This document shows, in pieces, positions 2,408 to 6,986 of a stretch of 6,986 nucleotides of DNA. Both the position numbers and the translations under genes were made by a program. Below the pieces are notes generated by a model. That model had not been told where the DNA came from, did no database searches, and worked only from the letters and a program-made list of their open reading frames with translations. This DNA is from Thermoproteota archaeon (GTDB taxonomy: Archaea; Korarchaeota; Korarchaeia; B14-G2), in assembly GCA_003661385.1 (NCBI GenBank), contig QMWA01000094.1:1-6986 (forward strand). Reading direction: 5' to 3'. The number at the start of each line of letters is the position of its first letter. The stretch's first letter is position 1.

Positions 2408-3352
2408 TTGAGGTATAGAGTTGAGCTGATAAGCTTAGACGAGAAGGATGAGCTAGTTGAAAGACACTCCAGCAAGGTGCTCTATGAGGTCAAAGCTGAC
2501 ATATACGGGGTCTGCATCAAGCTGCTCACTACCGAGAAGTGGGTTGCTGAGAAGTGGAGTGAGAACTTCTACCACTTCAATGAGAAGAACATAAGGAGCC
2601 ATGGCAGGCTCTATGTGCTGAGAGATGAGAGCATGGACAGGAACCTAGTGCTCTACAACAGCTACTCCAACACAGCATTCCTCTTCAACTTCACGTACTA
2701 CGGGTGGATCAAGTCCATAGCGCTTTCTGTTGCAGGAGACATCCTGGAAGACGACCACGGAATCTACTCAGTCCACGGAGCATGCCTAGACATAGATGGC
2801 AAGGGGGTAGCTATTGTTGCTCCAAGTGGCGTGGGGAAGACCACACACGCCTATGGGCTGATGAGGCTGCCTCAAACCAGGGTTATAGCAGATGACTTCT
2901 TCTACGTCAGGATACTACAGGACTTGCTGGCCTTCTCAACTGAGAAGAGCTTCTATGTCAGAGCTGACCTAGCCTCAATATGGCCTGAGTACGCTGAGAT
3001 AATGAAGCATGCTGAGGTAGATAGCGAGGGCAGGGCTGTAGTAGACATAAGGTGGGCTGTAGGCAAGGGGAGAGTGATACCGCAGACAACACTCAAGTCG
3101 ACGCTGATCCTCAAGAGAGACCCAGAGGACCCGAGAGAAGTCTACACGCCTAAGGTAGGAGAAGCCTTAGAGTACCTTAAGGAGCACAGCTACTGCAACC
3201 CACACTGGCTGGTGAGAGACCAGAGGAAGGAGAGGATAAGAGAAAGATTCTATAGGACACTCCTCGAGAAGACGAGGACTATAGTAGTGAACACGATGAC
3301 GCCACCTAAGAGGACACATGAGAACATAAGGAGAGCCTTAGGGCTCAAGTAG
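2408..3352 (+). CDS. HPr kinase/PEPCK-like P-loop protein
   Basis: A 314-aa soluble protein. Residues about 120-165 carry the signature of the HprK/PEPCK-type P-loop fold: a lead-in SVHGACLDIDGKG (121-133), the Walker A loop APSGVGKTT (138-146) and a DD pair (162-163) in RVIADDFFYV, matching the VADD of HPr kinases. By family this suggests ATP-dependent phosphorylation of a protein Ser or a small molecule. Archaea generally lack HPr, so the substrate is unlikely to be HPr. Residues 1-115 form an unrecognised N-terminal domain without membrane segments, and the basic C-terminal part (about 270-314) is probably helical. The TTG start is supported by GGTGAGG and by the TATA box at a normal distance. 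The gene follows the AOR in the same direction by 169 bp but has its own promoter. A functional link to the AOR is inference. The fold assignment is fairly sure, the reaction is not. Confidence 0.85.
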   Translation: MRYRVELISLDEKDELVERHSSKVLYEVKADIYGVCIKLLTTEKWVAEKWSENFYHFNEKNIRSHGRLYVLRDESMDRNLVLYNSYSNTAFLFNFTYYGWIKSIALSVAGDILEDDHGIYSVHGACLDIDGKGVAIVAPSGVGKTTHAYGLMRLPQTRVIADDFFYVRILQDLLAFSTEKSFYVRADLASIWPEYAEIMKHAEVDSEGRAVVDIRWAVGKGRVIPQTTLKSTLILKRDPEDPREVYTPKVGEALEYLKEHSYCNPHWLVRDQRKERIRERFYRTLLEKTRTIVVNTMTPPKRTHENIRRALGLK

Positions 3353-6171: not shown

Positions 6172-6843
6172 TCAGTGGCGTAGGGTGTGGAGGCCTATGT
6201 AGAGGAGGCCTACTGCTGCTAGAGCTATGGTAAGCAAGAGGACGTGAGCCCCCTGGCCAGCTTGTGGAGCAGGCTTCCTGGCCTCACAGGATATGCAGTA
6301 GATGCTGTTGAGCTCAGCTCTAAACTCGACCACCACATGCTCCTGAAGGCGCTTTACCCTGGCTTGGCTTGCGCGCAGGCTAAGCGAGCTAGCACTGGTG
6401 CTCCCTCAACCATCAAGTGTATGCTCACAGCTTCTCCAACTCTCACACGCTTGGAGCTCAAGCTGAGGGGCACAGAGGGCTCGCTGACCCTCCCAGTGTA
6501 CAGCAGGTAGTCTGCTGAGGTAGCTGCGTTGACTATCAGCTTGAGCTCCCCCTCCTCCCCGTAAAGTGATCCCTTAGCCTCCAGGATCACGCCAGCATCG
6601 TAAGCTGGAGGAGCCTGGGTGCTTACGAGGGAGACCATGTCGCCAGGCTTGACCTCAGAGCCCTCTATGACCTTGAGGACTAGAGCATGCCCCCTGTAGA
6701 GGCGGCCTCCACAGGTAGCGCAGTAGAGAAGCCTCTCGACAAGCACAGCCTCAACCCACAGCCTCCCCAAGGAGCGCCTGCGACGAGGCTAGCGCAGCTG
6801 GGGAAGCTGCTAAAGCAAGCAGGCATAGTGCACTGAGCCTCAA
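6172..6843 (-). pseudogene. Secreted, membrane-anchored CxxC protein interrupted by two frameshifts
   Basis: Three overlapping frames add up to one protein. Frame A (TTG at 6843, stop at 6751-6753) encodes a textbook signal peptide: MRLSALCLLALAASPAALA, then SSQAL. Frame B (open to a TAA at 6354-6356) starts inside A's 3' end and encodes a probable beta-rich domain with a CATC motif and a VKPGDMVSL strand pattern. Frame C (open from 6405 to a TGA at 6172-6174) continues with RVKRLQEHVVVEF, a CISC motif and a hydrophobic C-terminal helix (VLLLTIALAAVGLLYIGL) ending in LRH. Losing one G from GGGG at 6765-6768 and gaining one base near 6357 would give 223 aa with CxxC at 41-44 and 183-186 and a helix at about 201-219. 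A TATA box and GGGGAG precede the TTG. The CxxC pairs could bind metal or form disulfides. An OB-like fold is a guess. It may be a decaying gene, sequencing error or programmed frameshifting. Confidence 0.7.
6354..6770 (-). CDS. Middle segment of the interrupted secreted protein (138 codons)
   Basis: This is the only long intact open frame at this locus, and a gene caller would probably report it alone as a hypothetical protein starting with TTG at 6770. That start has no ribosome binding site, lies inside the signal-peptide frame and gives a product without export signal or anchor. I therefore read it as the central part of the 6172-6843 gene. Residues to note are CATC at 17-20, the IEGSEVKPGDMVSLVST strand pair at 35-51, and SKRVRVGEAVSIHLMVEG near 105-122, which resembles a strand of an extracellular beta-sandwich. 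I recognise no family. Confidence 0.5.
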   Translation of the reverse strand: MGRLWVEAVLVERLLYCATCGGRLYRGHALVLKVIEGSEVKPGDMVSLVSTQAPPAYDAGVILEAKGSLYGEEGELKLIVNAATSADYLLYTGRVSEPSVPLSLSSKRVRVGEAVSIHLMVEGAPVLARLACAQAKPG

Positions 6844-6847
6844 CCAG

Positions 6848-6853
6848 CTCCCC
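6848..6853 (-). promoter_or_regulatory. Shine-Dalgarno site of the minus-strand secreted protein gene
   Basis: On the minus strand GGGGAG ends four bases before the TTG at 6843. It supports initiation at the signal-peptide frame rather than at the TTG of the longer open frame at 6770. Confidence 0.5.
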
Positions 6854-6871: not shown

Positions 6872-6879
6872 TATATTAA
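6872..6879 (-). promoter_or_regulatory. TATA box of the minus-strand secreted protein gene
   Basis: TTAATATA on the minus strand stands out in GC-rich sequence. Its centre is about 32 bp before the TTG at 6843, the same geometry as the boxes before 2408 and 3842. A preserved promoter argues that the gene is expressed or was inactivated recently. Confidence 0.65.
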
Positions 6880-6913
6880 GCCTTCCCCAGAGTAGAGGAT
6901 AGCAGTGTGCTTG

Positions 6914-6985
6914 TTAGAATGGCACCTGTAGGCTAGCTGCCTCCTCTCTCATCCAGCTTACCTTCCCTCCTATCAGCCTCACCAT
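6914..6985 (-). CDS. Probable C-terminus of a gene running in from the right edge
   Basis: A minus-strand frame is open from the window edge to a TAA at 6914-6916. It encodes the 23-residue tail MVRLIGGKVSWMREEAASLQVPF, with AGG/AGA arginine and purine-rich codons like the neighbouring genes. Its Met is more likely internal than a start, because the stop follows so soon. A 70-bp gap with a TATA box separates it from the next minus-strand gene. The length is too short to name a family. Confidence 0.35.
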   Translation of the reverse strand: MVRLIGGKVSWMREEAASLQVPF

Positions 6986-6986
6986 G

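Follow-up and report, generated by a model that had tools for sequence, protein, structure and literature searches.

Three reading frames of one locus

The window analysed here is the entire contig C94 (6,986 nucleotides), one of 206 contigs in a 1.74-Mb assembly that is archaeal to judge from its genes. On its plus strand lie four genes, each in a single frame, encoding an aldehyde:ferredoxin oxidoreductase, an HPr-kinase-like protein, an ABC ATPase and a 12-TM permease. A further locus (6172-6843), convergent to these genes and thus on the other strand, lies within about 810 bases of the contig end and shows three frames in succession, with the following features:

6872-6880, minus strand: TATA-box-like CTTAATATA, by its sequence a putative promoter with a predicted transcription start near 6850
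6754-6843, minus strand: signal-peptide frame by translation, 30 codons from TTG 6843, its hydrophobic region aligning with a paralogue's signal peptide
6770-6788, minus strand: most likely interval of the first frame change, limited 5' by a frame-0 stop (6791-6789) and 3' by the onset of paralogue homology at 6770
6357-6770, minus strand: middle frame, an N-terminal beta-rich domain and the first Ig-like strands, whose homology to the paralogue covers residues 22-144 and probably extends to about 155
6354-6405, minus strand: obligatory interval of the second frame change, codon use and a KPG/PSG match favouring its 3' end
6175-6363, minus strand: C-terminal frame, from translation, codon use, helix and alignment likely the last Ig-like strands and a transmembrane helix, with the stop at 6174-6172

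Minus-strand translation confirmed this succession of signal, middle and helix-ending frames, which had been predicted from the DNA letters. The signal-peptide frame is preceded by GGGGAG at 6852-6847. From TTG 6843, minus frame 2 encodes MRLSALCLLALAASPAALASSQALLGEAVG up to a TGA at 6753-6751. An open stretch of minus frame 0 runs from 6788 to 6357 and is closed by TAA 6356-6354; counted from 6770 it has 138 codons. Minus frame 2 reopens at about 6405 and runs to 6175, its last residues being ...HVLLLTIALAAVGLLYIGLHTLRH. The two shifts are opposite in sign, and signal and anchor share one frame.

Codon use in the middle frame scores 0.20 per codon; own frames have a median of 0.27, and wrong frames reach -0.22 at their 99th percentile. 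For the signal-peptide piece codon use gives no discrimination; signal peptides were assessed by hydropathy and alignment.

Directly before the TATA-like box, positions 6915-6986 of the minus strand hold what appear to be the last codons of an upstream gene (...SWMREEAASLQVPF, stop at about 6915). On the plus strand the HPr-kinase-like P-loop protein (2408-3352) adjoins the aldehyde:ferredoxin oxidoreductase gene and matches PF07475 weakly, under the cut-off. Rfam and tRNA searches returned no match.

An intact paralogue in the same genome

Searching the pieces against their own genome led to an uninterrupted paralogue of 569 aa on contig C125 (C125:2520-4226; L005:1483-3192), which comprises a signal peptide, a shared N-terminal domain, a PEGA domain (PF08308 match) and a C-terminal helix. 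The middle frame aligns with residues 22-144 of this protein at 34% identity over 125 aa (E 5e-19), and the same homology was also recovered with single-protein searches. With this homology and its gene-like codon use, the middle frame bears out the original prediction that the locus is more than a set of chance frames. In a frame-aware alignment the match begins at window base 6770, which corresponds to paralogue residue 22, right after the paralogue signal peptide. The signal regions align in frame (LSALCLLA and LAAVLLLA), a resemblance to be read with the caveat that hydrophobic stretches align easily. Because the homology starts directly after the paralogue's signal peptide, at the point where the middle frame takes over, the derivation of the first two pieces from one former gene is well supported by the sequence comparison.

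An orthologue of the C125 paralogue is encoded in genome G021 (596 aa, L008:691-2481), again uninterrupted and with the same order of parts, and the same GTPase gene adjoins both. These two proteins share with the window gene a signal peptide that leads straight into the same N-terminal and Ig-like domains, and a C-terminal helix. They differ from it in being single intact frames, in being much longer, in carrying PEGA and further beta domains and in having other gene neighbours. The window pieces gave no match to Pfam, the PEGA domain included. Being a short paralogue, the window gene does not count as a full-length member of this PEGA/Ig-type surface protein family.

Across 297 genomes a profile search found matches in the own genome, in G021 and weakly in G005 only, which makes the window gene a lineage-restricted extra copy. 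Homologues of the middle frame were absent from viral contigs and GTDB genomes, and those of the C125 paralogue from GTDB genomes. A second copy or close relative of the window gene was not found in these searches, and relatives of the permease within the phylum have no similar gene in their 1.5-kb flanks.

A profile search of the PDB gave no significant match. The fold predicted for the middle frame was not used (pLDDT 40), and that of the C125 paralogue (pLDDT 47 overall) reaches reasonable confidence only in parts of the Ig-like and PEGA domains. With the paralogue model Foldseek retrieved generic beta-sandwich stacks, the best match being an archaeal S-layer assembly (8qox_B) at a TM score of 0.16, which we do not take as evidence of kinship. 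Another surface protein of the same genome (L010:601-2238, G000:C10) has PKD and PEGA/CarboxypepD_reg domains and a helix at its C-terminus; its gene lies upstream of one for an ABC ATPase.

The two frame changes

At the stretch that corresponds to the window's four-G run (6765-6768) the paralogue DNA reads CTGGGGAGG where the window reads TTGGGGAGG. The first shift had been pinpointed to this run; this position is not upheld, since the run is present in the paralogue too. A shift inside the run was rejected: the run is conserved and already lies in the middle frame, and the first shift is therefore most likely located 5' of it, between 6788 and 6770. Homology continues across the junction, with position and hydrophobic similarity as the basis for the signal-peptide part. 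Codon use did not localise this junction.

Comparison with the paralogue and its model shows the middle frame breaking off within the Ig-like domain. KPG, its final three residues, lines up with PSG in the paralogue, whose model continues with three further strands beyond that point. In the C-terminal frame, EHVVVEFRA and SIYCISCEA are suitably positioned to supply the remaining Ig-like strands. The codon use of this frame is fairly coding-like: it scores 0.06 over the 64 codons past the junction, a chosen sub-range, and so ranks near the 97th percentile among 543 open shadow frames; over the full open frame the value is -0.01. Among 779 open frames of 60-100 codons, 7 (<1%) have a C-terminal helix of equal hydrophobicity. 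An anchored alignment of this frame, with end points picked by eye, gave a weak match: 0.6% of shuffles did as well when the paralogue was the partner, and 5.4% when it was the G021 protein; free alignment of the segment to the C125 paralogue gave no significant similarity. The third piece likely belongs to the same gene. The proposal that the pieces form one signal-ectodomain-anchor protein is upheld in its topology, which the C125 and G021 homologues share; that the third frame belonged to it is plausible, though homology does not prove this.

Origin of the breaks

Our preferred reading, which we hold to be probable, is that the locus is a recently inactivated gene, either a pseudogene or a strain variant, in which a short and lineage-specific paralogue was split by two small indels. 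In its original form the gene would have specified a membrane-anchored archaeal surface protein built from a signal peptide, an N-terminal beta domain, a single Ig-like domain and a helix at the C-terminus. Translation from the putative promoter would now yield a peptide of 30 residues, essentially the signal sequence. Arguments for a broken gene come from the intact C125 paralogue, whose signal peptide sits just ahead of the homologous stretch, and from the orthologue of that paralogue in G021; the nearby contig end, the lack of a close relative and the absence of a significant free alignment for the C-terminal segment speak against it. We infer that the breaks are real mutations. If real they are recent, because the middle frame is gene-like in codon use and has no stop in 138 codons.

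The strongest competitor is that the DNA was misread or misassembled locally, close to where the contig ends; the real gene would then be intact and would encode an ordinary signal-ectodomain-anchor protein. We regard this as a serious possibility of somewhat below even likelihood. It would fit with a gene close to the end of a contig that is itself the whole window in a 206-contig assembly, with a middle frame that is normal in its codon usage and otherwise undamaged, and with the fact that two opposite indels restore the signal frame for the anchor. Against it stands a survey of a 274-kb sample of the same assembly, containing about 248 kb of predicted coding sequence and including the other genes of C94, for places where adjacent coding stretches on one strand differ in frame. 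This survey brought up nine direct changes, each with a start codon near the overlap. A looser list held 110 pairs, about a dozen of them lacking a nearby start codon, and Pfam tests of the five best start-less suspects revealed no family split over two frames. The sample thus contained no verified frameshift, in agreement with the earlier claim that the surrounding genes show none, and general sequencing error is therefore an unlikely cause.

Antonov et al. (2013, PMC3711429) regard an indel mutation or an error in sequencing as the probable cause of singleton frameshifted genes. The frameshifted genes of that study resemble our locus in having a homology-supported transition without a recoding motif and without conservation in relatives; unlike those singletons, the locus combines two opposite transitions in one short gene, of which one copy is known.

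The middle frame could also be read as an independent cytosolic protein starting at the in-frame TTG 6770, with the signal and anchor frames arising by chance, and the lack of significant homology for the C-terminal segment would suit this reading. We consider it very improbable: no ribosome binding site was seen before TTG 6770, the homologues are predicted to be exported and have their signal peptide immediately ahead of this very point, and the frame ends in the middle of an Ig-like domain. There is a caution for annotation here, as without the intact paralogue the locus would pass as a cytosolic orphan of 138 aa.

Least likely, and in our view very improbable, is programmed recoding, in which two ribosomal shifts, one in each direction, would produce the full-length protein: the summed topology is indeed complete, but reading by eye found an X-XXY-YYZ slippery heptamer in neither interval, and the uninterrupted C125 paralogue and G021 homologue need no shift. 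We know of no precedent for two opposite programmed shifts within about 430 bases. A full-length anchored surface protein made through two such recoding events, or switched on and off in phase variation by reversible indels, has an equally slight chance of being correct; if the breaks were real and such a protein were still made, this would represent a novel type of frameshifting in archaea, and nothing here points that way. The one -1 programmed frameshift reported for a cellular gene in archaea is that of fucA1 of Saccharolobus solfataricus (PMC8211752), where an A-rich slippery heptamer is accompanied by rare codons and a putative stem-loop. Like our locus, fucA1 is an archaeal gene with overlapping frames and intact homologues, but it has a heptamer and one shift where the window locus has two opposite shifts and no heptamer.

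As a separate observation, one relative of the window's permease, at G009:C7:14238-15682, was matched in two adjacent overlapping pieces (489 and 160 aa) and is possibly a split gene.
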